Positions 1,325 through 62,070 of a DNA stretch of 64,000 bases are shown here, piece after piece (position 1 is the first letter of the stretch; each line of letters starts with the position of its first letter). Origin of the DNA: Bacteroidales bacterium (GTDB taxonomy: Bacteria; Bacteroidota; Bacteroidia; Bacteroidales; P3). Where the stretch lies: positions 227,365 through 291,364 of the forward strand of contig JAFUWF010000019.1 of NCBI GenBank assembly GCA_017483575.1. Reading direction: 5' to 3'. The notes beneath the pieces are model-generated. The model saw only the letters and a program-made list of their open reading frames with translations. It made no database searches and was not told the DNA's origin. A program made the translations under genes and the position numbers.

Positions 1325-4300
1325 ATGAAAAAAAGTGTATTTTCAAGGTTGCTTTTGTTTGCAACGTTTTTGATGTCATTTGCTGTTGCGAATGCTCAAA
1401 CTGTGAATGTCTATGTTGAAAGTGATCCCGCTGATGCAGGTATGGTATCTGGCGGTGGCGATTACGAAGCGGGTTCCTCCGTTACTCTTACGGCAACGCC
1501 TAGTGGTTCCTATATCTTCCTTTTCTGGGAAGATGCTTATTATGGTGATACCTACGAAACGCCATCAATTAATATAACTGTTTCCGAAGACAGTTACTTT
1601 ATTGCTCATTTTGGAATCCGCTATAATGTCAATGTTACGATGGTTCCCGAAGGTGTTGACACCATCTGTTCCGTTACTGGGGGTGGTTATGTCAATGCCG
1701 GGTCAGCTCCCACCTTGAATGCAGTTGTCCCCACTGGCGCACCATACGCTTTCGTCCGTTGGGAACGCGGTGGTGTTGAAGTCAGTACCATTAGTAGCTA
1801 TCTTCTTGGTATAGTCAATAGTGATATTGATATTACCGCCGTCTTCCGCTACATCCCTCAGGATCGCACCATCTCCGTTGCCTCAAGCAACAATGCTCGT
1901 GGTTCGGTCTCTATGACTTATGGTGGCAATACTGGCACCTCCTTCACCATGATGGAAAGAGAGTCGCTGACCCTTACCGCCACTCCGGCCAACAACGATG
2001 TCTCCTTCGTCAAGTGGGTGAAGAACGGCGTGGATGTCTCCACCGAGAACCCCTACACCTTCAACCTCCCCGACGGTAGCGGCAACGACACTTACACGGC
2101 CATCTTCGTCAGCTCTGACGACCAGTTCACCATGACGGCCCTCCGCGACCCCGAGGCCGGCGGTAACGTCACTCCTGCCAACCCCACGACCTACAATGGC
2201 AACGCCAACTGCCAGTTCCTCGCCACCCCCAATGCCGAGTGGAATTTCCTCGGTTGGTACGACGAGAACGGCAACCAGCTCACCTCCTCAACCGAATACT
2301 CCATCACCCGCGTCATCCAGAACCGCACCCTCACCGCCCGCTTCTCTCACCAGCCCTTCCGCATCGCCTATACGGTCAATCCCGCTGAGGGCGGCAGCGT
2401 CAGCGTGAGTGGTGCCAACGGCAGCGGCACCTACGATGCCGGCACCAGCCCCGTGCTGACCGCCTCCGCCAATGCCAACTTCCGCTTCACTCGCTGGAGC
2501 GGCGACATCTCGGGTACCAACCCCTCCTATACCATCAGCAACATCTCCAGCCACTACGACAACATCGTGGCCAACTTCGTCCGCACCTACACCGTCACCG
2601 CTTCTGCCAACAACGGCGGCTCCGTCAGTTTCACCTCTTCCACCGAGGCCCACGGCGGCCGTTATGACGCCGGCAGCCGCATCACCGCCACGGCCACTGT
2701 TCCCAGCGGCTATGTCTTCGACTATTGGACCATCGACGGCACCGACGACCTTACGGCTACCTCCACCACCTACACCGTCGCCAGCCTCGACCACGACATG
2801 ACCCTCGTGGCCAACTACAAGCCTGTCTTCCGCCTCCGCCTCTACACCTCGCCCTCCGGTGTTGGCACCCTCACCGGTGCCGGCAGCGAATACCCCCAGG
2901 GCACCGAGGTCACCGTCCGTGTCTCCGGCTTCGACCGTACGCGCTACGAGTTCGTCAACTGGACCAACAGCGCCTCCGAGGTGGTCTCCACCAGCGAGGA
3001 GTTCCCCTATACCATCAATGCCAATGCCGACCTCACCGCCAACTTCAACACCCTGACCCGCTCCTATGCCGTCACCGTGCAGATTGAAGGCGACGGCCAG
3101 GTGCTCAGCAGCGGCAGCGTCTTCACCGGCGGCACCTTTACTGAGGGCACCACCCTCAACCTGACCACCCGTCCCGGCGAGGGCTACCAGTTCTCCAAGT
3201 GGGTTATCAACGGCACCGAGTCCACGGTAGCCTCGCAAAGCGTCACCGTCAACGCAGCCACCACCATCAAGGCTGTCTTCAACGCCACGTCCTACCACAT
3301 CGTCACCGTCGCCACCGACCCCGAGAACGACCCCATCATCCAGATCCTCGGCCTCAATGCCGACGGCCGCTACAACGATGGCGAGCGTCTCACCATCACG
3401 GCCTTCGCCAGCAACAATCCCGCCTACAACTTCGTCGGCTGGTTTGTCAACGAGCATTTCTCCACCCGCAACACCACGCTGAACATCGCCTCCGTCACCT
3501 CCAACCTCAACCTGCGTGCCGTCTACGAAATCACCCAGAATGCCGGTGCCGAGGACTACCTGGTGTACAGCGACAACACCAAGACCACCGTCATCGGTAT
3601 CCGCGAAGGCTATCGTGACCTCGTCACCTCCGTGACCATCCCCACCAGCGTCACCGCCATCGGCGCCCAGGCCTTCGCCAACTGCACCAACCTCTCTGCC
3701 ATCGAGATCCCCTCCTCGGTCCAGACCATCGGCAACTATGCCTTCTCCGGCTGCTCCGCCCTCCAGGAGGTCACCATCCCCTCCAGCGTCGCCTCCCTCG
3801 GCACCCATGTCTTCGACAACTGCTCCGCCCTGCGTAGCGCCACGCTGCCCACCGGCCTCACCTCCATCCCCGAGGGTCTCTTCTTCAACTGCTCCGCCCT
3901 GGCGTCGATGACCATCCCCGCCACCGTCGAGACCATCGGCAACTCCGCCTTCTCCGGCTGCTCCAGCATCTATACGATTGATGTCCCCGGCTCTGTCGTC
4001 AATGTCGGTTCGCAGGCCTTCGCCGGCATGCGCGGCCTCCGCTTCGTCACCCTCAACGGCGGCACCCAGAGCTTCGGCACCAACGCCTTCGAGAGCACCA
4101 ACAACATTGTCTCCACCAACTTCAACGGCACCCTTGAGCAGTGGCTCGCCATCTCCTTCGCCGATGCCAACGCCCAGCCCGTGTCGCGTTCGCGCAACCT
4201 CGCCATCAACGGCCAGATGCTCACCGACCTCGTCATCCCCGACGGCACCACCGAGATCAAGCCCTACGCTTTCTTCTACGACACGCTGATCGCCACCATC

Positions 4301-6106
4301 ACCATCCCCGCCACCGTCACCTCCATCGGCGGCAGCGCCTTTGCCCATCTCAACAGCCTTGAGCGCATCGTCCTGGCCAACCTCTCTGCCACCGTCGACG
4401 AGAACGCCTTCCAGGCTGTCGACAAGGAGCATGTCACCGTGGCCGTGCCCTGCAGCCTCTACACCGCAGGCATGACCTGGGCCGGATTCTCCAACATCGT
4501 TGTCGACGGCATGCCCACCCTGACGCTCAACCAGCGCCCCGGCGGTATGGCCAACATCAACGTCGTTCCTTCCTGCTCCGACGTGGCCTACACCTACACC
4601 ATCTCCGCTGTCCCCGGCTCCAACTATGAGTTCCTCTCCTGGAGCGACGGCAATACCGACAACCCCCGCATCATCACCCTTACCGACAACGACATGGTCC
4701 TCGCCCCCGTGTGGCAGCGTACCAACAACATCTCGCCCGCCATTGCCTCCTTCTATGGCTTCGAGGGTTCCGAGGAACCTGCCAACTGGTACAGCCTCAA
4801 CAACGGCGCCAACCAGTGGTTCGTCGGCGGTGCCACCGCCAGCAGCCAGCTCGTCGGCGGCTCGAAGAGCCTCTACGTCTCCAACAACCAGGGTGCCGCC
4901 AACAACTACGACCCCTCCTCCAGCCCCTACGTCTTCACCGAGGTCTACCTCCTGCAGGGTGTCTACGAAGTGCGCTTCGACTATAAGGTGGGTGGCGAAA
5001 GCGGCGACTACCTCTCCTCGGCCCTCATCCCCGACCACGGCAACTATGCCACGCTCGCCCTCGACAACACCGGCGCCATCGTCCTGGCCGACGGCCTCTA
5101 CGGCGACGACGAGACCTCGCTCCTCTGGCAGCAGAACAACCGTCTCGTCAGCGTGAGCACCCCCGGCTGGTACCAGCTGGCCTTCTTCTGGAATGCTGAC
5201 GACGACAGCGAGGTCAACAACCCCGGCGCCGCCATCGACAACATCTTCCTCACCTATCAGACGCCCTCCAGCCTTCAGGACCGCGTGGTCACCGTCACCG
5301 TCCGCTCCAACGACAACACCATGGGTATTGCCACCACCGGTAGCGGCAGCGAGACCTCGCACATCTACCGCTACGGCGACGAGATCACCATCCATGCCGC
5401 CGTCAACAACGACGCCCTCTACCGCTTCGTGCGCTGGAGCGACGACAACACCGATGCCGACCGCACCATCAACTTCGTCGACATCGCCGGTACTTCGCCT
5501 GTCTTCGAGGCCATCTTCGAGGCCATCCCCGACGAGTTCACTATCAACGTGACCCTCGATCAGAACGCCGTCGACGGCTCCACCCAGTTCGGTGTCAAGA
5601 ACGGCAACAGCATCGAGCGCACCGCTACCGTCCCCTTCGGCTCCACCGCCAGCATCGTGCTCAACCAGCCGCAGGCCGGCTGGGCCTTCATCGGCTGGTG
5701 GGACGGCACCCGGATGGTCTCCACCACCAACCCCTACAGCTACACCTGCCCCTCTAGCGCCAGCGGCCAGAGCAGCATCACCCTCGTGGCCATCATGAAG
5801 CCCTGGAGCGACTGCTCCGGCGACGACGAGGTGAACGACTTCGCTCCCCAGCCCTTCAACTTCGACCACTTCAACCCCGAGCTCGACCCCGTCGTTGTCA
5901 CCAATGTGGAGGTCTCCGTTGAAAACGGTCAGGTCGTGGTGCGCGAGAGCGCCGGCCTCGAGGTGAACCTCTTCGATGTCAACGGTCGCCTCCTGGCCAC
6001 CCAGAGCGATGCCACCCAGCCCGTACGTTTCGACGTCCCTGCCAGCGGCTCCTACATGGTCCGCGTCGGCAACATCGTCACCCGCAAGGTGGTTGTCATC
6101 AGATAA
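1325..6106 (+). CDS. Giant InlB-repeat / BspA-LRR surface protein with sorting domain
   Basis: This 1593-residue exported protein starts with a Sec signal peptide (cleavage near ANAQ, residue 25). Residues about 26-770 are successive InlB/Listeria-Bacteroides beta repeats (pattern Y..G..V.LTA.P..GY.F..W, ending in A.F). Residues about 785-1080 form a BspA-type leucine-rich block (VTIPSSV..IG..AF..CSAL repeats). A lectin-like section around 1165-1340 is followed by two more InlB repeats. The last 70 residues (VEVSVENGQVVV, FDVNGRLL, YMVRV, KVVVIR) resemble a type IX secretion sorting domain. It is probably a surface adhesin. The first ~530 bases are more AT-rich than the rest, which suggests a mosaic gene. 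Confidence 0.85.
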   Translation: MKKSVFSRLLLFATFLMSFAVANAQTVNVYVESDPADAGMVSGGGDYEAGSSVTLTATPSGSYIFLFWEDAYYGDTYETPSINITVSEDSYFIAHFGIRYNVNVTMVPEGVDTICSVTGGGYVNAGSAPTLNAVVPTGAPYAFVRWERGGVEVSTISSYLLGIVNSDIDITAVFRYIPQDRTISVASSNNARGSVSMTYGGNTGTSFTMMERESLTLTATPANNDVSFVKWVKNGVDVSTENPYTFNLPDGSGNDTYTAIFVSSDDQFTMTALRDPEAGGNVTPANPTTYNGNANCQFLATPNAEWNFLGWYDENGNQLTSSTEYSITRVIQNRTLTARFSHQPFRIAYTVNPAEGGSVSVSGANGSGTYDAGTSPVLTASANANFRFTRWSGDISGTNPSYTISNISSHYDNIVANFVRTYTVTASANNGGSVSFTSSTEAHGGRYDAGSRITATATVPSGYVFDYWTIDGTDDLTATSTTYTVASLDHDMTLVANYKPVFRLRLYTSPSGVGTLTGAGSEYPQGTEVTVRVSGFDRTRYEFVNWTNSASEVVSTSEEFPYTINANADLTANFNTLTRSYAVTVQIEGDGQVLSSGSVFTGGTFTEGTTLNLTTRPGEGYQFSKWVINGTESTVASQSVTVNAATTIKAVFNATSYHIVTVATDPENDPIIQILGLNADGRYNDGERLTITAFASNNPAYNFVGWFVNEHFSTRNTTLNIASVTSNLNLRAVYEITQNAGAEDYLVYSDNTKTTVIGIREGYRDLVTSVTIPTSVTAIGAQAFANCTNLSAIEIPSSVQTIGNYAFSGCSALQEVTIPSSVASLGTHVFDNCSALRSATLPTGLTSIPEGLFFNCSALASMTIPATVETIGNSAFSGCSSIYTIDVPGSVVNVGSQAFAGMRGLRFVTLNGGTQSFGTNAFESTNNIVSTNFNGTLEQWLAISFADANAQPVSRSRNLAINGQMLTDLVIPDGTTEIKPYAFFYDTLIATITIPATVTSIGGSAFAHLNSLERIVLANLSATVDENAFQAVDKEHVTVAVPCSLYTAGMTWAGFSNIVVDGMPTLTLNQRPGGMANINVVPSCSDVAYTYTISAVPGSNYEFLSWSDGNTDNPRIITLTDNDMVLAPVWQRTNNISPAIASFYGFEGSEEPANWYSLNNGANQWFVGGATASSQLVGGSKSLYVSNNQGAANNYDPSSSPYVFTEVYLLQGVYEVRFDYKVGGESGDYLSSALIPDHGNYATLALDNTGAIVLADGLYGDDETSLLWQQNNRLVSVSTPGWYQLAFFWNADDDSEVNNPGAAIDNIFLTYQTPSSLQDRVVTVTVRSNDNTMGIATTGSGSETSHIYRYGDEITIHAAVNNDALYRFVRWSDDNTDADRTINFVDIAGTSPVFEAIFEAIPDEFTINVTLDQNAVDGSTQFGVKNGNSIERTATVPFGSTASIVLNQPQAGWAFIGWWDGTRMVSTTNPYSYTCPSSASGQSSITLVAIMKPWSDCSGDDEVNDFAPQPFNFDHFNPELDPVVVTNVEVSVENGQVVVRESAGLEVNLFDVNGRLLATQSDATQPVRFDVPASGSYMVRVGNIVTRKVVVIR

Positions 6107-6132
6107 AAAAAATTGAATGTTTCATAAATGGA

Positions 6133-6166
6133 AACCGGCGCTGTCGCGAGACACCGCCGGTTTTGT
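6133..6166. terminator. Bidirectional terminator hairpin
   Basis: Stem AACCGGCG (6133-6140) pairs with CGCCGGTT (6155-6162). An inner TGTC/GACA stem closes a GCGA tetraloop. T-rich sequence lies on the plus side and A-rich sequence upstream, between two convergent genes. Confidence 0.85.
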
Positions 6167-6196
6167 TTTGGCCGGACCTGCGGCCTCCTGCATGCG

Positions 6197-8939: not shown

Positions 8940-9002
8940 TGAAGGGTCGATTCAAGTAGCTGTTATGTAGGCTTTTCGGCACACTCTTCCGTCCGTCCTG
9001 CA

Positions 9003-9058
9003 CACACACTCCACCGTCCGCCCTGTCGGGCGTCCACCTCCCCTAACTTAGGGGAGGA
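9003..9058 (-). repeat. Dispersed double-hairpin element, copy 3 (AGGTGG subtype)
   Basis: Reading left to right: ACACACTCCACCGTCC, a CGCCC/GGGCG hairpin, GTCCAC, then the palindrome CTCCCCTAACTTAGGGGAG. It is inverted relative to copy 2. Confidence 0.9.
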
Positions 9059-9095
9059 GCGAAGATGGTTCTTGCCGCAACCAGCAGTATCTAAC

Positions 9096-9150
9096 TGCTC
9101 CCCTAAGTTAAGGGAGCTGGCAGCGGCTTGCCGCTGACTGAGGAGTGTGT
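9096..9150 (+). repeat. Dispersed double-hairpin element, copy 4 (AGCTG subtype)
   Basis: The palindrome GCTCCCCTAAGTTAAGGGAG has one mismatch in the second arm. It is followed by a GCAGCGGC/GCCGCTG hairpin and ACTGAGGAGTGTGT. Confidence 0.9.
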
Positions 9151-9222
9151 AAGGAAGACCGACGGAGTGTGTTGGGAATAATAATTTACAAGCAAACACA
9201 ATAAAAAAAGCAAAACCAAGTT

Positions 9223-10269
9223 ATGAAAAAAAAATACAACCAGACGATGGATAAGATTACCCTAGGCCGCAGTGGCCTCGTGGTGCCCCGCAATGGGTTC
9301 GGGGCCCTGCCAATACAACGTATCAGTGAGGCCGATGCCGTGCGCCTCGTTCGCCGCGCCCTGGATGGCGGCATGTACTATTTCGACACCGCCCGCTTCT
9401 ACACCGACAGCGAGGCCAAGCTCGGTGCCGCCCTCGTTGGCCGTCGCAGCGACGTGATTATCAGTACCAAAACCGGTGCCACCAGCGTCGAAGGCTTCTG
9501 GAAGGACCTGGAGACGAGCCTGGGGTTGCTACGGACGGACTATGTGGACCTCTACCAGTTCCACAATCCCTCCTTCTGTCCCAAGCCCGGCGACGGCAGC
9601 GGCCTGTACGAGGCCATGCAGGAGGCTGTGCGCCAGGGCAAAGTGCGCCATATCGGTATCACCAACCACCGCCAGCGTGTGGCCCTCGAGGCCATCGAGA
9701 GCGGCCTCTACGAGACGTTGCAGTACCCCTTCTCCTACCTGGCGTCGGAGGCCGACCTGGACATCGTTGAGCGCACGCGCCAGGCCGGCATGGGCTTCAT
9801 AGCCATGAAGGGCCTCAGCGGAGGCCTCATCACCCACAGCGCCGTGGCCTACGCCTACCTGGCGCAGTATCCCCATGTGGCTCCCATCTGGGGCATACAG
9901 AAGGAGACGGAGCTCGACGAGTGGCTCTCCTACCAGGACAACTCGCCGGTGCTTACCGACGAGATGCGCGCCGTCATCGAGAAGGACCGCCGCGAGCTCA
10001 GCGGCGACTTCTGCCGCGGTTGCGGCTACTGCCAGCCCTGTCCCGCAGGCATACAGATCCAGGACTGCAACCGCATGTCGCTGTTCCTGCGCCGTGCCCC
10101 GCACAGTGTCTACCTCACCGAGAGCTGGTACCGCGAGATGATGAAGATCGACGGCTGCCTGCATTGCAACCACTGCGTGCAGCATTGCCCCTACGGCCTC
10201 GACACGCCGAACCTCCTGGTCCGCAACAAGGAGGATTTCCTGGAGTTCTGGAAGAACAGGAACCGTTGA
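9223..10269 (+). CDS. Aldo/keto reductase fused to a 2[4Fe-4S] ferredoxin domain
   Basis: A 348-residue oxidoreductase. The N-terminal TIM-barrel domain (about 10-255) has aldo/keto reductase landmarks: FDTARFYTDSEAKLG, STKTGA and DLYQFHN. The C-terminal part carries two cysteine clusters, CRGCGYCQPCPAG (about residue 263) and CLHCNHCVQHCPYG (about 310), suited to bind iron-sulfur clusters. Such fusions are common in anaerobes; the substrate is unknown. An alternative start is ATG 9247 (MDKITLGRSGL), which fits family members better. It overlaps trmO by one base (TGATG), so the two are probably co-transcribed. Confidence 0.85.
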   Translation: MKKKYNQTMDKITLGRSGLVVPRNGFGALPIQRISEADAVRLVRRALDGGMYYFDTARFYTDSEAKLGAALVGRRSDVIISTKTGATSVEGFWKDLETSLGLLRTDYVDLYQFHNPSFCPKPGDGSGLYEAMQEAVRQGKVRHIGITNHRQRVALEAIESGLYETLQYPFSYLASEADLDIVERTRQAGMGFIAMKGLSGGLITHSAVAYAYLAQYPHVAPIWGIQKETELDEWLSYQDNSPVLTDEMRAVIEKDRRELSGDFCRGCGYCQPCPAGIQIQDCNRMSLFLRRAPHSVYLTESWYREMMKIDGCLHCNHCVQHCPYGLDTPNLLVRNKEDFLEFWKNRNR

Positions 10270-12537: not shown

Positions 12538-12966
12538 ATAGCAAGGGCTGTTCTATCGCTCGGCACTTCGGATGCCGAGAGGAAAGTCCGGGCAGCGCGA
12601 GCCACCATGCTTCCTAACGGGAAGGCAGCGGATGAATGCTTGAATGCGTGATTCCGCCGACAGAGAGCGCCACAGAAAAGAAACCGCTAATCGTGCAAGG
12701 CTGCCTCCGCAAGGTCGGCCACCATGCATGAAGCAAGGGTGAAAACGCGGGGTAAGAGCCCACGACGTGTCCCGGTGACGGGCGCGATGGCAAGCCTCAT
12801 GGGCTGAAAGACCAAATAAACCGACAACCTCGGGCCGGCTCGCCCGATAGCCGCAAGGCTTTTGTCGGCGGGTAGGTCGATAGAGACCGTCGGCGACGGC
12901 GGCCCTAGATTGATGATAGAAGAACCCGCAAGGGTTACAGAACCCGGCTTACAGGCCCTGGCTATT
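12538..12966 (+). ncRNA. rnpB: RNase P RNA
   Basis: This is the catalytic RNA of ribonuclease P, which matures tRNA 5' ends. The hallmark conserved segments are present: GAGGAAAGTCCGGGC near the 5' end, GGGTAAGAGCCCAC in the middle, and ACAGAACCCGGCTTACAGGCC near the 3' end. The ends pair (TAGCAAGGGC with GCCCTGGCTA), and nine T follow. It has its own promoter. About 429 nt, a normal length for bacterial type A. Confidence 0.95.
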
Positions 12967-12977
12967 TTTTTTTGAAA

Positions 12978-37149: not shown

Positions 37150-37253
37150 AAAAAAGGGCAAGCTGTTTATATCGCACCGCTACAACCAAACACCCTTGCT
37201 GTATTCCTACCCTGGGGGATTCAATGGGAGCTGGTCGTATAAGACTTGCCCTA
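37150..37253 (-). ncRNA. ffs: Signal recognition particle RNA (4.5S)
   Basis: On the minus strand, GGGCAAG (37251-37245) pairs with CTTGCCC (37162-37156), followed by TTTTTTATT. TTATA/TATAA and ACGACC/GGTTGT extend the rod. The apical part CCCCAGGGTAGGAATACAGC followed by AAGGGT matches the conserved SRP domain IV with its GGAA tetraloop and asymmetric loop. The RNA pairs with Ffh in membrane protein targeting. The promoter at 37306 implies a 5' leader of about 45 nt, probably processed. Confidence 0.9.
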
Positions 37254-37305
37254 ACTCTCTGTTCCGGATGGATTTACATCGTTCATCCACCCTCTTTCCG
37301 AATTG

Positions 37306-45924: not shown

Positions 45925-45932
45925 TATTTTTG
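45925..45932 (+). promoter_or_regulatory. Promoter core for the leader RNA
   Basis: TATTTTTG followed by CACCCGAAAA. A TTGG lies at 45910-45913. The expected transcript start is about 45939. Confidence 0.75.
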
Positions 45933-45938
45933 CACCCG

Positions 45939-46182
45939 AAAACGACGAGAGAAGTCGTGCGATGCGAAGAGAGCATTTGTATTGGTCCGCTAACTGAATT
46001 TCGCCAAAAATTTATAACACAAGGGCTATGATACTGATGCCTTTTGCTTTTGCCTATGTAATGGTATTCTGCCACCGCATAGCTAAGCATAGGATAAGGT
46101 TCAAAGTTGGTTTTACTTGTGTAAGGCGTTTGGCGATGCCTAGTTAGCGTAGAACAAACAACGCGAGTTCTATGCTTTTTTT
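45939..46182 (+). ncRNA. Structured RNA of about 244 nt, candidate sRNA or attenuator leader
   Basis: Bounded by a strong promoter and an intrinsic terminator (GCGTAGAAC 46147-46155 with GTTCTATGC 46167-46175, then seven T). The 5' part holds two small hairpins with purine loops (ACGAC/GTCGT and GATGC/GCATT). The body folds as nested long-range helices: GCTAAC with GTTAGC, TCGCCAAA with TTTGGCGA, ACACAAG with CTTGTGT, GCTATG with CATAGC. The rod shape recalls 6S RNA, but I cannot assign it. It lies 58 bases before the seven-gene operon and could control it. Confidence 0.65.
46147..46182 (+). terminator. Rho-independent terminator of the leader RNA
   Basis: A 9-bp stem with one G-U pair, an 11-nt loop and a T7 tract. 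Confidence 0.85.
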
Positions 46183-46239
46183 GTATTCACGCCGTGCCAG
46201 GGGGGTAAAGAAAAAGAAAAACATTAAACACTTGAAAAT

Positions 46240-47019
46240 ATGATATACACAAACAACCCGTCAAAGATCATCGGAGATGCCCCGATGAACATTCTGTCCG
46301 ATGATGTACACCAACTCTTCAGCGACTCCTGTGCTGTCAAGTCGCAGCAACTGGTCCTGCAGGATTTCGGAATCTACATCCCCGAAGAACAATTGTATAT
46401 GGAAGCTGAGGCAAACGGATGGATCCATGAAGGAACAAGCCCCTATGATGTCGGAAAGCTGCTGGAACTCCATGGCGTCCCCGTCTCACAGTACGAGAAC
46501 GCCAACATCTTCAATCTGGTCAACGAACTCGCACAAGGCCACAAAGTCATCGTCGGCGTCGATTCCGGTGAACTGTGGCAAGACGATGTCTTCGACAAAC
46601 TCTTCGAAGACAACCAGGCCGACCATGCATTGATAGTCTCCGGTGTGGACACAACCGACCCCAACAACGTCAAGGTCATCCTCACCGACCCCGGCTCCGG
46701 CGAATTGCTCAAGGAATACCCAATGGAGCAATTCGTGGACGCCTGGCAGGATTCCGGCTGCTTCATGGTGACGACAAACAATGCGGTTCCCAACATCTTT
46801 GACCCGTTCAGCACCATGCCAGGATTCGACACACCGATCTCCAACCTCCCTACTATCGGCCACATGCCCTATGATATTTTCTACAACGATTTGGCGTTCC
46901 TCAACTACACCAACGACATCCCTGTGTATGTCTATGACGACTTCGCCAACTACGTTGACGGCGACATATCCTCGTTCTCTCCGGAATCGATGGATTATTT
47001 TGGCACATTAATAATGTAA
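46240..47019 (+). CDS. C39-like (papain-fold) peptidase-like protein
   Basis: 259 residues, no signal peptide. The pattern CAVKSQQLVLQDFGI (Cys31), YDVGKLLELHGVPV, LAQGHKVIVGVDSGELW, DHALIVSGVD (His129) and VILTDPGSGE (Asp150) is that of C39-like cysteine peptidases such as those linked to toxin or bacteriocin processing. The Cys-His-Asp set is complete, so it may be active. The C-terminal 75 residues are Asp/Pro/aromatic-rich and not recognised. First gene of a seven-gene operon; the next gene starts 4 bases later. Confidence 0.7.
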   Translation: MIYTNNPSKIIGDAPMNILSDDVHQLFSDSCAVKSQQLVLQDFGIYIPEEQLYMEAEANGWIHEGTSPYDVGKLLELHGVPVSQYENANIFNLVNELAQGHKVIVGVDSGELWQDDVFDKLFEDNQADHALIVSGVDTTDPNNVKVILTDPGSGELLKEYPMEQFVDAWQDSGCFMVTTNNAVPNIFDPFSTMPGFDTPISNLPTIGHMPYDIFYNDLAFLNYTNDIPVYVYDDFANYVDGDISSFSPESMDYFGTLIM

Positions 47020-47023
47020 GCCT

Positions 47024-49183
47024 ATGGAGCCATTCACAATGATGATTGGCTACGGGCTGGTCAATTCGCTCTCGCAGCTAGCCATTAGGCCTTTGGCCGA
47101 CAAAATGTCGCAAAAGGGCCGGCGTGAGGACATGCTTCTCCAGATGGAGGAGAAGCACCGCCTCGACCTTGACATGCTCAGACTGAACAAAGAGATCGAT
47201 CTCGCCAACAATTTCAACATTCAGCAATACAGCCATGCCCTTCGGATCAAAGAGGCCCAAGGGCAGTTCGAAAAGCAACTGGAAATGTGGCAACTCGGGC
47301 AGTTCAACCAGACCATGTGGCCCCTGCTCACCCCCTTCGACCACCCCTCGCTCAAACCCCACGGCACCAAGAACGGACAGGTCCCCGTCAACTTCTTCAT
47401 GGCCAAGACCGACCCAAGGTCGCCCTACGCCTCGCTCATGCAGTCCGACGTGAAAAACCAGCTCAGCACCTTCCTCCAGACCTCCTATTCCGCTAGCACC
47501 GACCACCCCTGCATCTGCCGCATCGGCGACTGGAAGGACGGCTTCCAAGACGCCGCTTTCATCAACGCACTTTGGTACGGTCTCCAAGGACAACCCTGCA
47601 TAGTCATCAACCCCATCCAGTCCGAATTCGGAGAACGCCTGGACCTCAACGTCAGCCTTTGGGGACTGGCACAGGACGGATTCTCCCCCCTCACACAATC
47701 CGTCCTCACCGGCCCCTTCGGCTCCGCCATCGGCAAAATAAAACGAGACGAAACCATCAAATGGAAAGACATGGGCCTCCCCGCCTCCTCGCCCGAAATG
47801 ACACACAACTTCTCCCTCCTGGCACAGGAAAAAAGCCTGCGCGAGCAAGGCCGCGACGAAAACGTCATCCGCCAACTCCTCATCCAGTACAAGCTCCCAA
47901 AAGAAATACAGACCACCGTCCTCAACCGTTTCACCAGCGACTACTCCCACACACTCGCCTGCATCAGCGGCATGTACTCCGACATCATCCACCTCATAGA
48001 ATATGGCGCCGAGCCCTACATGCCCACAGCCATCAACGCCTATAGCCATCTCGTTGGCCGCAATATCACCATCCCCGATGTCGCCGTAGAATACTATCGA
48101 AAAGCCCTGTGCAACATCACCTGCTCCGACTATCTCCAGGGACACCTGCCCTATGCCTACCTCAAAGTCGCCAAATCCATCCAGTTCGACACCCTCAACG
48201 CACACCAAGTCTTCCAGGAAGGCATCGGCCTTTGGGCCAACCGCAAACAGGATCTCCAAAAAGAACTCCCACTGCCCGACACCATCGACGGTTGTGTCCG
48301 CCTGCTCCGCGACATCTCCACCGACACGGACAAGCCCTACCTCGAGCTGGCACAGAAGGTGCTCATATCCATCAACGAACAGGATGCCGCCAAAGAACTG
48401 GACGAAAAGATAGTATACATTGCAGCATCTGAAACGACAGATCCTGAATCCGAGAAAGAAGTCACTTGGGACATTCTGGAAACCGCACACTATTCCCAAA
48501 GAGAGTTTGAACGCTGGGCGAATAGGAACAGTCCTCAAGCACTCCGCCTCGGAGCCTCTGCGGCAGCATTGCAGGTGCGCCAGTCATGCCTCTGTATGGC
48601 CTTCCTCGACGCAGAAGCAAACATCATCCATCACGAAAAGTCCTTGCACGGAATGTGCGTGTCGGCCCGTACCTTCGTTGTCGACAACGAAATGCCGCCC
48701 GATGGAATGCTGATATATGACCTTGATAAACATTATTATAAAACAAACACAGTATTTATGGAAAAGAACAATCTATTTGAAAGTGTTGGGAAAAAACTCG
48801 ACGAGTTCTTTGCCAACTCGCCGCGCATCGTCATAGTACCGCGCGAACAGCACCCTCGGCAAGACGACGTGGTGCAGCTCCTGATGTCTCGTGCAGGCCA
48901 GGATGTGGAAGTGCACAGCATTGACAGCAGCTTTGAGTACAACGACCTGATCCGGTGGGTGGAAAAGAACGCCATTGGCGACACCTTCTATGTTGCCAAG
49001 AGTACATCCAACGAAAACAGAAAGGCCTTGTGTGTCTTTTTTGGGAAAAACGACACAGTGCTCTCTGGAGTACAGTATCCCAAAGTGTGTTTATTTTACA
49101 GCAAACTACATCCGAGCATAGCCGATCTGTTTGCCGACGGAAATAGTATTTATGTTCAATCTTTTAAAATAGTGGAGGAATAA
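47024..49183 (+). CDS. 719-residue protein of unknown function
   Basis: Soluble, no signal peptide. The N-terminal third begins with a short hydrophobic start (MMIGYGLVNSLSQLAIRPLA) and a charged helical segment (about 30-90: MLLQMEEKHRLDLDMLRLNK and on) that looks like a coiled coil. The middle (NFFMAKTDPRSPYASL, DHPCICRIGDWKDGFQDAAF, INALWYGLQGQPCIVINPIQ) is beta/alpha-like, followed by helical-repeat sequence (about 300-480), and a C-terminal part (ARTFVVDNEMPPDGMLIYDL, RIVIVPREQHPRQDDVVQLL). I recognise no family. It may be the large scaffold or sensor of this operon; that is inference. Confidence 0.6.
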   Translation: MEPFTMMIGYGLVNSLSQLAIRPLADKMSQKGRREDMLLQMEEKHRLDLDMLRLNKEIDLANNFNIQQYSHALRIKEAQGQFEKQLEMWQLGQFNQTMWPLLTPFDHPSLKPHGTKNGQVPVNFFMAKTDPRSPYASLMQSDVKNQLSTFLQTSYSASTDHPCICRIGDWKDGFQDAAFINALWYGLQGQPCIVINPIQSEFGERLDLNVSLWGLAQDGFSPLTQSVLTGPFGSAIGKIKRDETIKWKDMGLPASSPEMTHNFSLLAQEKSLREQGRDENVIRQLLIQYKLPKEIQTTVLNRFTSDYSHTLACISGMYSDIIHLIEYGAEPYMPTAINAYSHLVGRNITIPDVAVEYYRKALCNITCSDYLQGHLPYAYLKVAKSIQFDTLNAHQVFQEGIGLWANRKQDLQKELPLPDTIDGCVRLLRDISTDTDKPYLELAQKVLISINEQDAAKELDEKIVYIAASETTDPESEKEVTWDILETAHYSQREFERWANRNSPQALRLGASAAALQVRQSCLCMAFLDAEANIIHHEKSLHGMCVSARTFVVDNEMPPDGMLIYDLDKHYYKTNTVFMEKNNLFESVGKKLDEFFANSPRIVIVPREQHPRQDDVVQLLMSRAGQDVEVHSIDSSFEYNDLIRWVEKNAIGDTFYVAKSTSNENRKALCVFFGKNDTVLSGVQYPKVCLFYSKLHPSIADLFADGNSIYVQSFKIVEE

Positions 49184-49187
49184 ATTT

Positions 49188-49661
49188 ATGTTTACAGCAA
49201 TTTTATCTTATGTTGTTCTGGCCGGTCTCGTTTATTACGGTGTCAAAGGAGCTTGGGAATTGCTCAAGTTCGCCTGCAAGGCCGCCGTTTGGGTTGTCGG
49301 AGCATTGTTTACTGTTGCGGAGTCCTTGGTGGATTATGTAAGAGACACTATCTCTACGAGTCCCGAACATGAAACACAATCGGTATACATAACCGACGCT
49401 GGTCCTTTGAATGATTTCATTAAAAAGCAACTGGCTGAGAACAAAGTGAAAACAGAAGATGGCGTTCTTGAGATTTCTCGTCGATTGGATGAGGCTGAGA
49501 AAAAGAATGAGAAAATCATCATGTCCGAAGTAAAGGATGCATCGGGCAAGGTGGGCATTGCCAATCCCAAGTTTGTCCAGGCAGATAAATTTGAGTCCAA
49601 CATACAGGATGCTCTCGATAACGGCCAAATCTATCAAAAGAAAGTTAAGTTGACCAACTGA
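49188..49661 (+). CDS. Small membrane-anchored protein, operon gene 3
   Basis: 157 residues. The first ~50 residues are hydrophobic with one or two membrane helices (ILSYVVLAGLVYYGV, AAVWVVGALFTVAESLV). The rest is a charged cytoplasmic or periplasmic domain with a coiled-coil-like part (LEISRRLDEAEKKNEKIIMS). No family recognised. More AT-rich than the flanking housekeeping genes. It starts 4 bases after the 719-residue gene. Confidence 0.6.
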   Translation: MFTAILSYVVLAGLVYYGVKGAWELLKFACKAAVWVVGALFTVAESLVDYVRDTISTSPEHETQSVYITDAGPLNDFIKKQLAENKVKTEDGVLEISRRLDEAEKKNEKIIMSEVKDASGKVGIANPKFVQADKFESNIQDALDNGQIYQKKVKLTN

Positions 49662-49780
49662 ATTTTTGGGTAGGTGGCGTGCGCCCCCTCTCATTATCCA
49701 ATCCGCATATTAAAATAATGGTTAGAGATAGTGATGCCCCGAAAAATGACGATAAAAAAACCGTAAAATAAAGAAAAAAA

Positions 49781-50284
49781 ATGAAAAAAACATTGCTCAT
49801 AATATTAATAATAGTACTGGCAGTTGCTGTTCTGGCAGCGGCAGGTCTGTTTATCTACAAAAGGTGGCTCGACATGCACAAGAAGCCGAGCCCGGCTTTT
49901 CCAGATGATAATGACAAACTAATATACGCAAAAGAGACTGTCGACACGCTGTCGTACGAATACATAGTCCGCTGCGTAACCAATACTGCCAAAGCAAAAA
50001 AGGATGAGCTGGACGACACGGAGGACCTCCGTTTTTACGTGTTTCCAAACAAAATGGCACAGGATTACTACAAATACAGTAAAGATCATGGAGTGGATCC
50101 TTTCCAAGGTCTGACAGATGAGGAACTTGGAAAAATGGTGCTGGTCCATCTTGCCACCGAAAAGGATGGTAAACAAAAAACTATGTGGGGCAAATTGTTT
50201 ATAGCCAACAATCTTGCTGACGATTATCTGGATTTTATTCCAGATGACAAAATATACGAAAAAATGATAACCATAACAGATTAA
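49781..50284 (+). CDS. Small membrane-anchored protein, operon gene 4
   Basis: 167 residues. MKKTLLIILIIVLAVAVLAA followed by AGLFIYKRW is one N-terminal membrane helix; the rest is a soluble domain (LSYEYIVRCVTNTAKAKKDE, LRFYVFPNKMAQDYYKYSKD, DEELGKMVLVHLATEKDG). Family unknown. A 119-base AT-rich gap precedes it, and the next gene starts 3 bases later. Confidence 0.6.
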   Translation: MKKTLLIILIIVLAVAVLAAAGLFIYKRWLDMHKKPSPAFPDDNDKLIYAKETVDTLSYEYIVRCVTNTAKAKKDELDDTEDLRFYVFPNKMAQDYYKYSKDHGVDPFQGLTDEELGKMVLVHLATEKDGKQKTMWGKLFIANNLADDYLDFIPDDKIYEKMITITD

Positions 50285-50287
50285 CAA

Positions 50288-50581
50288 ATGCTGCTGGAGT
50301 TTTTAATAGGCTATGCCCTTATCGGGATAATTGGTGCCATACTGGAAGTGTGCATCGAGATTGCCAGTTATAACAATGCAAAGGCCGAAATCAAACATAA
50401 GGCACAGGCATCTATTGGCAACCAGAAAGATATCTTCGAGATGTTCGTTGCTTCACAGGAAAAATATGTGGACGGAGAGACTCTGGTGTTAAAAGCCTTC
50501 GACCGGAATAAGAACCACATAGCCAACGTTAAGGTAAAAGCCCCCCAAGGTACTCCCTTGCGCGTAGGGGAACGTTTTTGA
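50288..50581 (+). CDS. Small membrane protein, operon gene 5
   Basis: 97 residues with one N-terminal helix (MLLEFLIGYALIGIIGAILE) and a short domain (KDIFEMFVASQEKYVDGETL, KVKAPQGTPLRVGERF) that could be an OB- or NfeD-like beta barrel: the last 25 residues read like the membrane-proximal fold of such proteins (GTPLRVGERF). That is only a suggestion. Confidence 0.55.
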   Translation: MLLEFLIGYALIGIIGAILEVCIEIASYNNAKAEIKHKAQASIGNQKDIFEMFVASQEKYVDGETLVLKAFDRNKNHIANVKVKAPQGTPLRVGERF

Positions 50582-50610
50582 TATTTAAACATACTAAAAG
50601 GAATCAATTC

Positions 50611-52509
50611 ATGACAATCAATCCCGAAATAATAACACAAAAACCGGAACAGATACCCGCCTATGAGCAGAAACTGGCTGATGATATCTTGAAAATCATA
50701 CAGAACAGGGCTGATAATTCTGAAACAGCGAGAAAAAATAGTTCCAATCTGTATGTCTACATCGCCATCGATGCGATAAGTTCCGAAAAGAAATCAGCGC
50801 TCTTCATGGAACTGAAGCCGGGTCTCTTTTTCGCCAAGGACAACAGCTTTTCTTTAAAAACAGAGGAGAATATTTTAGTCGATGTACTGAAAAGAGCCAT
50901 CCAGATGCATGTAGACATCCCCCGCGAAGTGAAGACATGTCTTGTCTACCTTTCGCTGGAAGAACGGGATCAGTCGGTACTTTGGGGCTCAGCCGACAAG
51001 GAGACGGGCAACGATACGGTAAAATTCGAGGCCGAAGAGCCGCTCTATTCTTTGGATGAGGTGGTGATGAACGACGACGAGCGAGATGCCATCATGCGGG
51101 CCGTGACGCTGGTCAAGGAGAAGGAGCTCATTTTCAAGAGGTGGAATTTCTCCAAAGTGGACAAGCACACGAAGTCTATCCTTTGTTTCCATGGTGCTCC
51201 GGGTACGGGCAAGACGATGGCGGCACATGGAGTGGCACGTTTCCTCGGTAAAAAAATACTGGTGGGAAGCTATGCCCAGATAGAGTCCGAGTTTGTAGGT
51301 GTGGGTGCAAAGAACCTGAAGGCGTTCTTCGAGTGTGCGAGGGTGCAGGATGCCGTCCTGTTCATCGACGAGGCGGACACGTTCCTCAGCAAGCGGCTGC
51401 CGAGTTCGAACGAGAGCGCGAAGCACTACAACAGCATGTCCAACGAGCTGTATCAGCTAATCGAGGGGTTTGACGGTTGCATTATTTTTGCGAGCAACCA
51501 TATAAAGGATTTCGACCCTGCGGTGATTTCCCGCATCATAGAGCCGGTGGAGTTCAAGCTGCCGGACCAGCCCACCCGCAAGCGGATTCTGAGCAACCTC
51601 TGGCAGGAGGAGTTCCCGGTGGAGGGTGGGAAGAGCGAAGAACTGTTGACCCTTCTTTCGGAACGGACAGAGGGTTTCTCGGGACGCGACATCCGCAAGG
51701 CTCTGCTAATTGCAAATGCGAATGCGGCGTACAGGATGAAGGTGGTTGGAGGAATGAATGACAGCGATATTGTTGTGCCAAAAGACATTCTTTTGGATAG
51801 TTTTGCGGAGGTACGGGAGGCGAAGGATGCGCTGGATGCCGCCATGGGTAAAAACACGACGTCCGACCTTCTGTCTTCATTCATCGATAAGAAGCAGAAG
51901 GAGACCCGTTATCTGCAGATGGCGGCACACGCGCTGCTGGCCGACAGGCGTATCGATTCCAGGGAGAGGTCTCTGTATGATGAGCTTTCGTCGATTACGG
52001 GGGTGACTGTGCCGCTGGTGGAAGAGGAACTTCCCGCTGTGGAGGAGCTGTGCAAGGGTGCGACATCGAAGGAGGAGCGGAGTCGGCTGTTGGATGTGGT
52101 GGTCAGGATGAGCGCCTACGACCTGAATATACATGATCTGGAGGAGTCGTTGATAGTGAGGGCGGCGGAGCTGCTGGGTGTCGGTCCGGAGAAGAAGGAG
52201 ACGTTGCTGCGATATGCGCAGAGCTTAAGGGATCTGTCGCAGGAGTGGGAGGATATCACGGGTACCATGGGAATGACGGACGAGGATATTCTGGCTTCGT
52301 TGCAAGAGGAATACACGAAGGGTGCGGCGTACTACCATCTAGGGGAGATGTACGAGAGTGGGTCGAGCGACTTCGGTGGTATACAGAGGGACGAGACGAA
52401 GGCGAAGCAGTACTATGCAGAGGCTGAACGGTGTGGCTTTGCGAAGGAGAGGGGGAAACGCCGGGAGGAGGAGTTGATTAGAAAGGAGGATACCTATGAA
52501 GAGAGATGA
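50611..52509 (+). CDS. AAA+ ATPase with TerB-like and Sel1-like parts
   Basis: 632 residues from ATG 50611 (AAAAGGA upstream). Residues 1-180 are an unrecognised N-terminal domain. The AAA+ module has Walker A GAPGTGKT (195-202), Walker B VLFIDEAD (249-256), sensor 1 FASN (293-296), an Arg finger near SRI (308) and GFSGRDIRKA (355-364). Residues about 433-530 (LQMAAHALLADRRIDSRERS and on) look like a TerB/DjlA helical domain, and 571-610 is one Sel1/TPR-like repeat. Probably a remodelling ATPase of the FtsH/proteasome-like clade. Its end overlaps the OmpA-family gene by 14 bases. Confidence 0.78.
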   Translation: MTINPEIITQKPEQIPAYEQKLADDILKIIQNRADNSETARKNSSNLYVYIAIDAISSEKKSALFMELKPGLFFAKDNSFSLKTEENILVDVLKRAIQMHVDIPREVKTCLVYLSLEERDQSVLWGSADKETGNDTVKFEAEEPLYSLDEVVMNDDERDAIMRAVTLVKEKELIFKRWNFSKVDKHTKSILCFHGAPGTGKTMAAHGVARFLGKKILVGSYAQIESEFVGVGAKNLKAFFECARVQDAVLFIDEADTFLSKRLPSSNESAKHYNSMSNELYQLIEGFDGCIIFASNHIKDFDPAVISRIIEPVEFKLPDQPTRKRILSNLWQEEFPVEGGKSEELLTLLSERTEGFSGRDIRKALLIANANAAYRMKVVGGMNDSDIVVPKDILLDSFAEVREAKDALDAAMGKNTTSDLLSSFIDKKQKETRYLQMAAHALLADRRIDSRERSLYDELSSITGVTVPLVEEELPAVEELCKGATSKEERSRLLDVVVRMSAYDLNIHDLEESLIVRAAELLGVGPEKKETLLRYAQSLRDLSQEWEDITGTMGMTDEDILASLQEEYTKGAAYYHLGEMYESGSSDFGGIQRDETKAKQYYAEAERCGFAKERGKRREEELIRKEDTYEER

Positions 52510-53905
52510 TTCAGTAAATAAACTGTTTTTGAATGCATTGTTTATGCCTTTGGCAGTGATGGTGCTGGCTGCGCATCCTGTTGCGGCTCAGGGTCAGGAG
52601 AGGGGGCTCAGGTTGGGTGTGGATCGGGACAGTGTGTATTACACGGTTGCTTCTCCAGGGGACAACTGGTGGGTGCGCCTAGATGGTGGATTGGGTACGT
52701 TCATCGGCAACGAGCAGGACGGCGAGGCCCGTTGGAACAAGGTGGACGGACGTGTGAACGTGGAGGTGGGCAAGTGGCTGATTCCCGATGTGGCTGTGTC
52801 GCTACGGTTGTCGGCGTTTCATGTAAGCAGTCAGGGATGCGACTCGCTGGGCAACCCGTGGCTTGATATGGAGAGCCGGACGGGGGACACCTACTTCGGC
52901 GGGTACTACCACCCGATGTCGCTCCACGGCTTGTCGGCAATGGGCATTGTCACCCTAGACTGGACCAATTTTATATATGGATACGAACGTGGCGGTCGAC
53001 GTCGCATGCACGTGCAGACGCCGCTCGGCATTGGCGGGGTCTGGCTCTACGGGAAGCAGTGCAACGCGTTGGCTACCAGTGGACAGACGGGCGATGTGCG
53101 CTGGAGGAGCAATGTGGCATTCATGGGAGGCCTGAGGGCGGAGTGGGCGCTTTCTGCAGATGTTGCTTTACATGGCTCAATGGAGATGCTGGCCACCAGC
53201 GGGGCCATCGACTGGACAGACCTCTACGGCAATGCCAATCCGCCGCACCCGAACCGTGTCGTCGACTGGATGCCGTCGCTGAACGTAGGCGTTACGATCA
53301 ACCTGAAGGGACGGCGGACGAAATACAGGGCGGAGCATGGCTTCGAGCCGATCTATATCCAGCGGTCCGGGCTGAAGCCTCTGATTATATACGACACGAT
53401 AGAGGAGTTGCATAGGTATGTCGACAACAGTCCATGCGAATATTGTGCCCATATGTCGTACCTCCGCCGTCTGGAATACGACATGAAGAACCTAATGCCC
53501 ACGGGGAGCGCTCCGGAGCCCCCCATTACGCTGGGGACCGCCGTGTTTTTCGCTAGTGGCAGCAGCAATATCGACCTCAACGGGCAGGTGAACCTCGGCT
53601 GGCTGGCAGGTCAGCTGGCCATGTGTGACGACAGCACGGAGCTATTTGTTGTCGGTATGGCCGACACTGCATCCGGCAGCCCCGAGGCCAACCGCGTGCT
53701 GTCGGAGAAGAGGTGCGAGGCCGTGCGCGATGCTTTGATGGGAAAACACGGGATAGACGGAAGCAGGCTGGTCATGATACCGCTGGGCGGTTTCGCCCTT
53801 CACCCCGAAGCGGAGAGGAACCGCAGCGTGATAGTGGTGGTCAAGACCGATGACACACAGGCCATCATTGAAAGATGGGTGGAAAAGGCGGGGAAAAAGC
53901 ACTGA
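52496..53905 (+). CDS. OmpA-family outer-membrane protein
   Basis: 469 residues with a signal peptide (about 1-32, AHPVAAQ). The middle (WWVRLDGGLGTFIGNEQDGE, GKWLIPDVAVSLRLSAFHVS, SLNVGVTINLKGRRTKY) is beta-barrel-like. The C-terminal ~115 residues (VFFASGSSNIDLNGQVNLGW, VVGMADTASGS, NRVLSEKRCEAVRDALMG, AERNRSVIVVVK) are an OmpA-like peptidoglycan-binding domain with the expected Asp and Arg. The gene is embedded in the AAA+ operon (14-base overlap), which ties an envelope anchor to the cytoplasmic ATPase. Confidence 0.82.
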   Translation: MKRDDSVNKLFLNALFMPLAVMVLAAHPVAAQGQERGLRLGVDRDSVYYTVASPGDNWWVRLDGGLGTFIGNEQDGEARWNKVDGRVNVEVGKWLIPDVAVSLRLSAFHVSSQGCDSLGNPWLDMESRTGDTYFGGYYHPMSLHGLSAMGIVTLDWTNFIYGYERGGRRRMHVQTPLGIGGVWLYGKQCNALATSGQTGDVRWRSNVAFMGGLRAEWALSADVALHGSMEMLATSGAIDWTDLYGNANPPHPNRVVDWMPSLNVGVTINLKGRRTKYRAEHGFEPIYIQRSGLKPLIIYDTIEELHRYVDNSPCEYCAHMSYLRRLEYDMKNLMPTGSAPEPPITLGTAVFFASGSSNIDLNGQVNLGWLAGQLAMCDDSTELFVVGMADTASGSPEANRVLSEKRCEAVRDALMGKHGIDGSRLVMIPLGGFALHPEAERNRSVIVVVKTDDTQAIIERWVEKAGKKH

Positions 53906-61461: not shown

Positions 61462-62070
61462 ATGGAACCAAAAGCAGAAAAAACAGAACGCTTACAGCAT
61501 GACTATCAGCTTGTATGCGATGCCCGCGACCGGGGAAGCCACAAGGCCTACGCCGCCCTGATGGCCTCCTACCGCGAACCGTTGTACCTGCTTCTGCTCC
61601 GCATGACGCACAACACCACCACGGCATCGGACCTCACCGTGGAGACCTTCAGCAAGGCTTTTCTCCAGCTGCACCGCTATGCCCCCACGGGATCGTTCAG
61701 CTCGTGGCTCTTCTCCATCGGCGTCAACACCTACATCGACTACCTTCGCAAACGCCGCCCCGACACCGTGTCGCTGAGCAGCATCACTCGAACCAACGAC
61801 GGCGAATTCATTGAATACCAGATACCCTCCGGCCAACCCAACCCTGAGGAAGACCTCATCCGCCGCCAACGCGACGCCGCGCTCAAGGAGGTGGTGTCGG
61901 AACTCAAGGAACCCTACCGCCGCATTATCGAACTGCGCTACTACGAAGACCTCAGCTACGAGGAAATCGCCGAGCGCCTCAAGCTGCCCCTGGGCACCGT
62001 CAAAGTGCGCCTGATGAGGGCCAAGACACTGATCGCCAGCATAGTGAAAGAACGGGGCGATGTGATTTGA
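61462..62070 (+). CDS. ECF-type RNA polymerase sigma factor
   Basis: 202 residues. Region 2: YREPLYLLLLRMTHNTTTAS, DLTVETFSKAFLQLHRYAP and SWLFSIGVNTYIDYLRKRRP. Region 4: ELKEPYRRIIELRYYEDLSY, EEIAERLKLPLGTVKVRLMR. It starts 43 bases after the GT2 gene. No anti-sigma gene lies beside it, so it is probably of the housekeeping-like type that Bacteroidota carry near this glycosyltransferase. Confidence 0.88.
   Translation: MEPKAEKTERLQHDYQLVCDARDRGSHKAYAALMASYREPLYLLLLRMTHNTTTASDLTVETFSKAFLQLHRYAPTGSFSSWLFSIGVNTYIDYLRKRRPDTVSLSSITRTNDGEFIEYQIPSGQPNPEEDLIRRQRDAALKEVVSELKEPYRRIIELRYYEDLSYEEIAERLKLPLGTVKVRLMRAKTLIASIVKERGDVI

Follow-up and report, generated by a model that had tools for sequence, protein, structure and literature searches.

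A conserved structured leader RNA precedes a rare peptidase-ATPase operon and diverse other genes in Bacteroidales

In a 64,000-nucleotide stretch of a Bacteroidales genome (assembly GCA_017483575.1, contig JAFUWF010000019.1, positions 227,365 to 291,364 of the forward strand; hereafter the window), a seven-gene operon is directly preceded by a structured leader RNA whose relatives stand in front of many otherwise unrelated genes of the order. The first-pass annotation of this DNA had described the operon and missed both the RNA immediately upstream and its many relatives. By computation we delineated the operon, the gene set it shares with related loci, the catalytic residues of its peptidase, the variable site at which it lies, and the structure and repeated position of the RNA. 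We propose that the operon encodes an accessory system of Bacteroidales that spreads horizontally, and that a dedicated structured leader RNA gates its expression, a reading to which we give an even chance of being right. The RNA comprises the following features (window positions):

45925..45932, plus strand: TAnnTTTG promoter element at the leader's 5' end
45932..46183, plus strand: structured leader RNA with ten consensus helices, a pseudoknot and a 3' U-tract
46147..46182, plus strand: terminator-like 3' end, GCGTAGAAC...GTTCTATGC followed by seven T

The element TAnnTTTG, which we take to be the promoter type of Bacteroidota, occurs within the first 70 nucleotides (nt) in 60 of the 61 copies aligned. 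In the window the pseudoknot pairs TTCGCCAA (46000-46007) with TTTGGCGA (46129-46136), the 3' strand of the terminator-like hairpin also pairs over a long range with upstream GCATAGGA, and the distance from the RNA to gene 1 is 56 nt. The fold of positions 45925-46200 reached -87.1 kcal/mol (z -4.07), and none of 200 shuffled sequences folded as well.

A DNA search of the genus returned some match at an expect value (E) of at most 0.01 in 152 of 189 genomes, many of promoter length only and with several long copies in some genomes. Sixty regions from the upper part of this match list were used, and the 60 copies of at least 180 nt that were kept, from 59 of the regions, were aligned with the window (alignment A4, 61 rows); a short copy on contig C23 of the window's own genome fell under the length limit and was excluded. 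The A4 structure combines an RNAalifold consensus with helices set by hand from the same alignment, namely the pseudoknot TTCGCCAAA/TTTGGCGA, the host hairpin and the outer arm. It pairs in 94.3% of cells, and 119 cells are changed on both sides versus 38.2 ± 4.9 in shuffled alignments (0 of 500 as high) and 23-57 in slid versions of the structure. A further 32 copies, of which three come from a single genome of the same genus (G100) and the other 29 from different genera, were aligned with the model, and this alignment, which leans towards the model, held 269 double-sided cells versus 99.4 ± 9.2, with slid versions at no more than 44. Unfitted MAFFT alignments folded with RNAalifold gave z-scores of -17.2 for the 32 copies and -15.1 for the A4 copies, and none of 60 column shuffles was as low. 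The leader is an RNA with a conserved, compensated secondary structure. The covariance model R1 scored the window, itself one of the 61 training rows, at 245 bits. Rfam 15 at its gathering threshold left the leader unmatched in the window and 19 further loci, reporting only RNase P, small SRP and transfer RNAs, and a permissive scan of 601 bases returned three matches, all at E 0.64-3.6. The match of the window to the Bacteroidales small SRP family fits a host in that order, as does the Bacteroidales-like look of a same-genus locus; an initial assignment of the host to Akkermansia was dropped on these grounds. The element might conceivably act as DNA, marking the boundary of a mobile cassette or the place where it recombines, with incidental RNA structure, as its association with unrelated cargo in unrelated places, phage contigs included, would allow; covariation of the RNA pairs over the 61 copies, and again in the unfitted alignment of the 32 further ones, makes this highly unlikely.

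With three pairings open to its 3' strand, the RNA could plausibly work as a terminator/antiterminator switch. Transcription would start at the TAnnTTTG promoter and yield an RNA of about 250 nt, and to reach gene 1, 56 nt on, the polymerase would have to pass the U-tract that follows the long-range closing helix; the fold of the RNA, or an RNA-binding protein, may decide between termination and read-through. The local 3' hairpin pairs in 94.5% of cells, without clear covariation. Several observations limit the case for such a switch: the alternative helices of the 3' strand can form but show no clear covariation, at least five T occur in the 8-nt tail in only 54 of the 61 copies, and TTCTATGCTTTT is present in only 45 of them. 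Given the weak U-tract in some copies and the incomplete occurrence of TTCTATGCTTTT, the terminator switch is therefore not proven. A leader-peptide attenuator in the window's frame found no support, as the ATG frame is open in five of 61 copies and the length of the segment is not kept modulo 3.

Across the order, R1 found the leader in 48 of 364 genomes and in 31 of 202 genera (E <= 0.01, strict filters). The first downstream open reading frame (ORF) of at least 80 amino acids (aa) is co-oriented with the leader in 58 of the 60 genus copies; under a second rule, taking the longest ORF that starts within 1.5 kb, this holds for 56 of 60. The upstream neighbours of these copies are mixed (37 plus, 22 minus, one none). 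Among the 32 further copies, 31 have a downstream ORF, which is co-oriented in 29. The RNA could also be an independent, trans-acting small RNA with its own terminator, its position before accessory operons then reflecting transfer as a cassette. Its own promoter in 60 of 61 copies, the run of at least five T in the tail of 54, the several long copies in some genomes and the moron-like cassettes in phage contigs would all suit such an RNA, whereas the nearly constant co-orientation of the next gene, at a median distance of 57.5 nt from the genus copies, speaks for a leader and makes a trans-acting RNA unlikely in our view. Of the 44 gaps that measure 150 nt or less, 42 lack a second TAnnTTTG. 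We discarded this absence as evidence for a leader: the gaps are so short that shuffled ones would be expected to hold the element in only 0.6 of 44, so that the observation is at chance level, uninformative and no argument against another promoter or against a small RNA acting in trans.

As a leader, the RNA precedes varied genes. We scanned 30 downstream proteins chosen by hand from 28 loci, a sample that gives no measure of enrichment. They included Tubulin_2, caspase C14 (three loci), VWA plus kinase, PP2C, dynamin, TerD, GTPase, FHA-kinase, FHA, HsdM, sigma-70, M48, DnaJ and AAA families, together with LRR_5 (two loci), TPR and DUF6175; for five of the 30 no family reached E 0.001, and four more (L124, L107, L077 and L103 in our numbering of loci) had best matches below cut-off. 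At L127 the leader is followed by the type I restriction genes HsdM, HsdS and HsdR. The second copy in the window's own genome, on contig C23, is shortened (L093, 5159-5326, minus strand). Together with the genes after it, it spans L093 3-5326; their products are an FHA-trypsin protein, PP2C, a protein kinase, a small protein and, by eye, one that is FHA-like, and the gene for the small protein comes first. Furthermore, a shortened, degenerate leader (R1 E 3.9e-5) lies before a sigma-C39-dynamin operon at L036, in the same genus.

The exact 17-base core of the leader was present in 25 IMG/VR stretches, of which R1 matched nine at E <= 1e-6 and a tenth at 5e-4; among the nine, L207, L214 and L218 score identically and may be near-duplicates. 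In L198, L201, L204 and L207 the leader and small genes are oriented against the surrounding genes, and in the two of these whose surroundings were scanned the latter encode a major head protein, a portal and a head morphogenesis protein (L207) and a head morphogenesis protein (L198). Such a leader with small genes set against phage genes has a moron-like layout; it differs from phage morons as commonly known in that most leader copies examined lie in bacterial genome contigs. The downstream genes of L169 and L175 are by eye the same as those of L198 and L207, and some of the copies in bacterial contigs may be prophage. By blastn, the leader was found in none of the plasmids or phages searched. 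Separately, an HSDR_N protein stands behind a weaker leader copy at L203.

The operon downstream of the leader in the window was confirmed as seven plus-strand ORFs at 46240-53905:

46240..47019, plus strand: g1, 259 aa, C39-like peptidase of the papain fold with Gln25/Cys31/His129/Asp150, no signal or membrane stretch
47024..49183, plus strand: g2, 719 aa, unnamed, residues ~1-460 conserved and C-terminal part more variable
49188..49661, plus strand: g3, 157 aa, hydrophobic segments at the N-terminus, soluble part akin to that of g5
49781..50284, plus strand: g4, 167 aa, single N-terminal hydrophobic helix
50288..50581, plus strand: g5, 97 aa, single N-terminal hydrophobic helix
50578..52509, plus strand: g6, AAA+ ATPase (IetA/CDC48-like AAA domain) with a TerB-like and Sel1-like tail below cut-offs
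52496..53905, plus strand: g7, 469 aa, signal-like hydrophobic start and C-terminal OmpA domain, outside the conserved core

The tight packing reported in the first-pass annotation (gaps of 4, 4, 119, 3 and 29 bases and a 14-base overlap) is correct if g6 starts at ATG 50611, which is likely its true start; the mechanical ORF begins at TTG 50578. The same annotation had called g1 C39-like with an intact Cys31/His129/Asp150 set. The residues bear this out, since Gln25, Cys31, His129 and Asp150-Pro151 are invariant in all six aligned sequences, the window's included, and a Gln has its role in the papain-type catalytic set; counting against the family assignment, Pfam C39 families matched g1 weakly (17.5 and 16.3 bits, under cut-offs of 24 and 22). 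In g6 the AAA domain is clear in Pfam (81 bits), but the TerB-like part suggested earlier scored 20.9 bits under a cut-off of 24.4, a further point against the domain reading, and the Sel1-like part 22.5 under 30.7. The OmpA domain of g7 is above its cut-off (33.5 versus 27.2 bits), and g7 is predicted to be exported.

For g2 to g5, Pfam yields no family above cut-off, in agreement with the initial failure to place the 719-aa protein, and the membrane helices proposed for the three small proteins correspond to hydrophobic N-terminal stretches in g3, g4 and g5. PADLOC matched g6 to several models, IetA best (87 bits, E 4.2e-25), and gave no match up to E 1 for the other six proteins. None of the seven was named by NCBIfam above cut-off, g6 scoring 75 bits against IteA where the cut-off is 510, so none of Pfam, NCBIfam and PADLOC has a name for the set, as the first reading had supposed. 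A PDB sequence search up to E 1 returned one weak match each for the g2 profile (E 0.71) and the C39 profile (E 0.94). The soluble parts of g3 and g5 appear to form one family (hhalign probability 80%, ten column-shuffled controls at 0.3% or less). One domain common to the g2 C-terminus, g3, g4 and g5 was considered and dropped, for hhalign backs only the g3-g5 pair (g2 halves 4.5%, other pairs at most 1.2%).

Scanning genome contigs with g2 gave five relatives, in metagenome-assembled genomes labelled Prevotellaceae (two), Muribaculaceae, Lentimicrobiaceae and Bacteroidales. Three of them (L003, L004, L005) share the order C39 peptidase, g2, one or two g3-like genes, a g4-like and a g5-like gene, the AAA+ ATPase and a small secreted-looking CxxCxGxG protein (the last by eye), and L002 has the same set with the peptidase gene relocated downstream. 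In L006 the g2 relative differs in its C-terminal part, and C39 had no match in the genome. Identity to the window is 69-72% for C39 in three loci, and for g2 47-52% in four loci, 38% in L006 and 27% in L007. BLAST linked g3 to its counterparts weakly (best E 0.003) and found none for g4 and g5, which were matched by position and by-eye alignment only. Judged by gene order, three loci with an identical arrangement and a fourth with the peptidase moved are more than chance; the genes co-occur in other genomes, and gut Bacteroidales thus possess in this operon a genuine module that can be transferred. The earlier inclusion of the OmpA-family protein as an anchor of the set did not hold up: its OmpA domain and signal-like start are sound, but g7 has no counterpart in the relatives (best E 0.78). 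The relatives' ATPases, at 525-535 aa, stop short of the Sel1-like part, and on these comparisons the conserved core includes neither the OmpA gene nor the TerB/Sel1 parts.

Few genomes carry the module. g2 was found in two of 190 family genomes (that of the window, and another in which the match is partial, at 28%), in one of 395 phylum genomes (again the window's own) and, around two of the relatives, in one of 393 and one of 200, each time the relative itself. C39 relatives occurred in 10 of 189 family genomes and, all distant, in 27 plasmid records; g2 and C39 were absent from the viral contigs searched, and C39 from the phages searched. The G+C content of g3, g4 and g5 is 43.5, 40.9 and 45.2%, respectively, versus 56.1% for the window, and this AT-richness, the rare distribution and the variable site described below agree with the suggestion that these are acquired, accessory genes. 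As a separate observation, small proteins in L002 (9206-9745), L003 (9992-10537) and L006 (12440-13108) carry by eye a motif like D(I/M)FG..H and later VD(I)M(F)SGLP; these proteins near g2-type loci are possible substrates or adaptors of the peptidase.

The site of the operon was compared with the regions around alaS in eight relatives (L155-L162). Four of them (L155, L156, L158 and L159) have counterparts of the window's dxs and 326-aa gene next to groES-alaS, separated by no more than one other gene, and the site is empty in two of the eight (L158 and L159). Several genes occupy it in L157 and L160, and L160 (genome G091, 1741-6177) carries at the position of the operon a 1353-aa Cas9 and a partial 123-aa Cas1 match (PADLOC). 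The site is empty in some relatives and Cas9-bearing in another, and it is therefore a variable one that also takes CRISPR-Cas. Neither dxs nor the 326-aa gene was present in the stretch examined of L161 and L162, and R1 found nothing at E 0.1 in any of the eight regions.

The operons of L002, L003 and L005 begin with a sigma-like and an anti-sigma-like gene, and the L004 contig starts inside the second of these. Sigma70_r4_2 was over the Pfam cut-off in L005 and marginally under it in L003. Beside the operon of the window we found no sigma or anti-sigma gene or remnant, the best match in the window being at E 0.012 (position 61915); the L003 sigma protein used as a query had one weak match elsewhere in the window's genome (E 0.002). 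Here the leader RNA may replace the sigma/anti-sigma control of the relatives. More broadly, and with somewhat less than even confidence, we suggest that one uncatalogued, pseudoknotted leader of about 250 nt is shared by Bacteroidales, where it would switch mobile cargo in common, from anti-phage and conflict operons to surface proteins and prophage morons, and that this operon swapped its ancestral sigma/anti-sigma control for it. Certain results run counter to these proposals: R1 had no match up to E 1 in L002-L006 and none up to E 0.1 in 10 of 12 other loci with C39 genes, L039 among them reaching only E 0.13. In addition, the wider copies often precede BspA-like or other exported proteins (by eye; LRR_5 confirmed in L189), and thus the leader RNA is not defence-specific.

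These twelve further C39 loci (L020-L023 and L035-L042) place the peptidase in a wider setting. In 11 of them, all except L035, a gene of 182-237 aa resembling the sigma-like genes lies directly upstream of C39. Ten proteins, nine of those eleven and that of L005, were checked for sigma domains in Pfam: Sigma70_r4_2 was above cut-off in L023, L036 and L005 only, L020 had sub-threshold sigma matches, L021, L022, L037, L041 and L042 had no match up to E 0.01, and L039 had only an unrelated weak one. At L104 the sigma match is above cut-off. The sigma type of the C39 neighbours is accordingly firm at some loci and suggested by resemblance at others. The N-terminal stretch before C39 in the eleven loci resembles by eye what we take to be a zinc-less anti-sigma domain, and the L022 C39 protein (8989-9927) ends in a RyR domain (Pfam E 8.6e-32). 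A C39 domain behind an anti-sigma-like start and with a RyR end is possibly a protease-sensor regulator of conflict islands. Ends similar to the RyR of L022 were also seen by eye in L020, L021 and others, the Pfam test covering L022. Pfam neighbours of C39 include a dynamin pair (L023), an Hsp70-family protein (L020), an M48 peptidase (L021), CHAT and FGE-sulfatase (both L022) and WD40 (L042), and TIR occurs above cut-off in L039 and below it in L022. In the three annotated plasmid loci, C39 is accompanied by Hsp70 in all three, by dynamins or a GTPase in two and by sigma-70 factors in two. Two observations stand apart: at L036 (2187-3593) a dynamin-family GTPase has a phage tail collar match (E 2e-22), and at L020 (10299-11045) a NusG-domain protein (31 versus 22.2 bits), a candidate antitermination factor, lies directly upstream of the sigma-like/C39 pair.

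Once switched on, the operon would supply a membrane-anchored set made up of a C39-like cysteine peptidase in the cytoplasm, a 719-aa scaffold-like protein, three small membrane proteins and the ATPase; the IetA/CDC48-like AAA+ ATPase may extract or unfold a substrate for the peptidase at the membrane, or may control the peptidase there. We infer that its role is likely a response to phage or envelope damage. The defence-island setting raised at the outset is partly borne out, in that relatives of the peptidase lie near TIR, CHAT, Hsp70 and dynamin genes and the site holds Cas9 in L160. An envelope-maintenance or secretion complex with an OmpA protein and periplasmic proteins and with no conflict role would also fit the small membrane proteins, the OmpA-family protein, the small secreted-looking CxxCxGxG proteins of the relatives (by eye) and the leader copies before BspA-like and lipoprotein-like genes. 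The patchy, rare distribution, the variable site shared with Cas9 and the TIR, CHAT, RyR, Hsp70 and dynamin genes near C39 relatives argue against it, and we hold it to be rather unlikely.

The accessory-system reading has parallels among known systems. The anti-phage system IetAS consists of an AAA ATPase and an S8 subtilisin. The operon resembles it in that g6 matches the PADLOC IetA models and an ATPase gene is paired with a protease gene, and differs in that its protease is C39-like rather than a subtilisin, five further genes are present and g6 scores far under the NCBIfam IteA cut-off; no IetS-like match was found among the seven proteins in Pfam, PADLOC or NCBIfam. Structured 5' leaders of the riboswitch, attenuator and antitermination types, such as those controlled by UpxY/LoaP, likewise lie ahead of operons with their own promoter and a terminator-like 3' end, whereas the present leader had no Rfam 15 match in the sequences scanned and its downstream genes are unrelated and do not form one pathway. 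The NTP-dependent conflict systems of Aravind and co-workers combine NTPase, protease and effector-type genes and ECF sigma factors with TIR and caspase neighbours (PMC8195603), features that recur here. RyR, dynamin and C39 do not occur in that article, and its passages on these systems do not mention a leader RNA (PMC8195603). In the open-licence literature on C39 with dynamin, Hsp70 or conflict systems, AAA, sigma factors, RyR/TIR and IetAS and on structured leaders of Bacteroides and Bacteroidales, titles and the beginnings of abstracts describe neither the operon nor the leader RNA, and the same holds for passages of PMC2864571 with part of its motif table; such an absence is no proof.

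If it works as proposed, the leader would be a single handle on when gut Bacteroidales switch on defence and other accessory genes, and it could serve as a marker by which new cargo systems are found through RNA search instead of protein homology. Within a set that the scanned libraries do not name, the operon brings a cysteine peptidase together with an AAA+ ATPase, and it can be tested as a defence or an envelope-stress system. Elsewhere in the window, Rfam located an RNase P RNA at 12540-12967 and a Bacteroidales small SRP RNA at 37152-37258.

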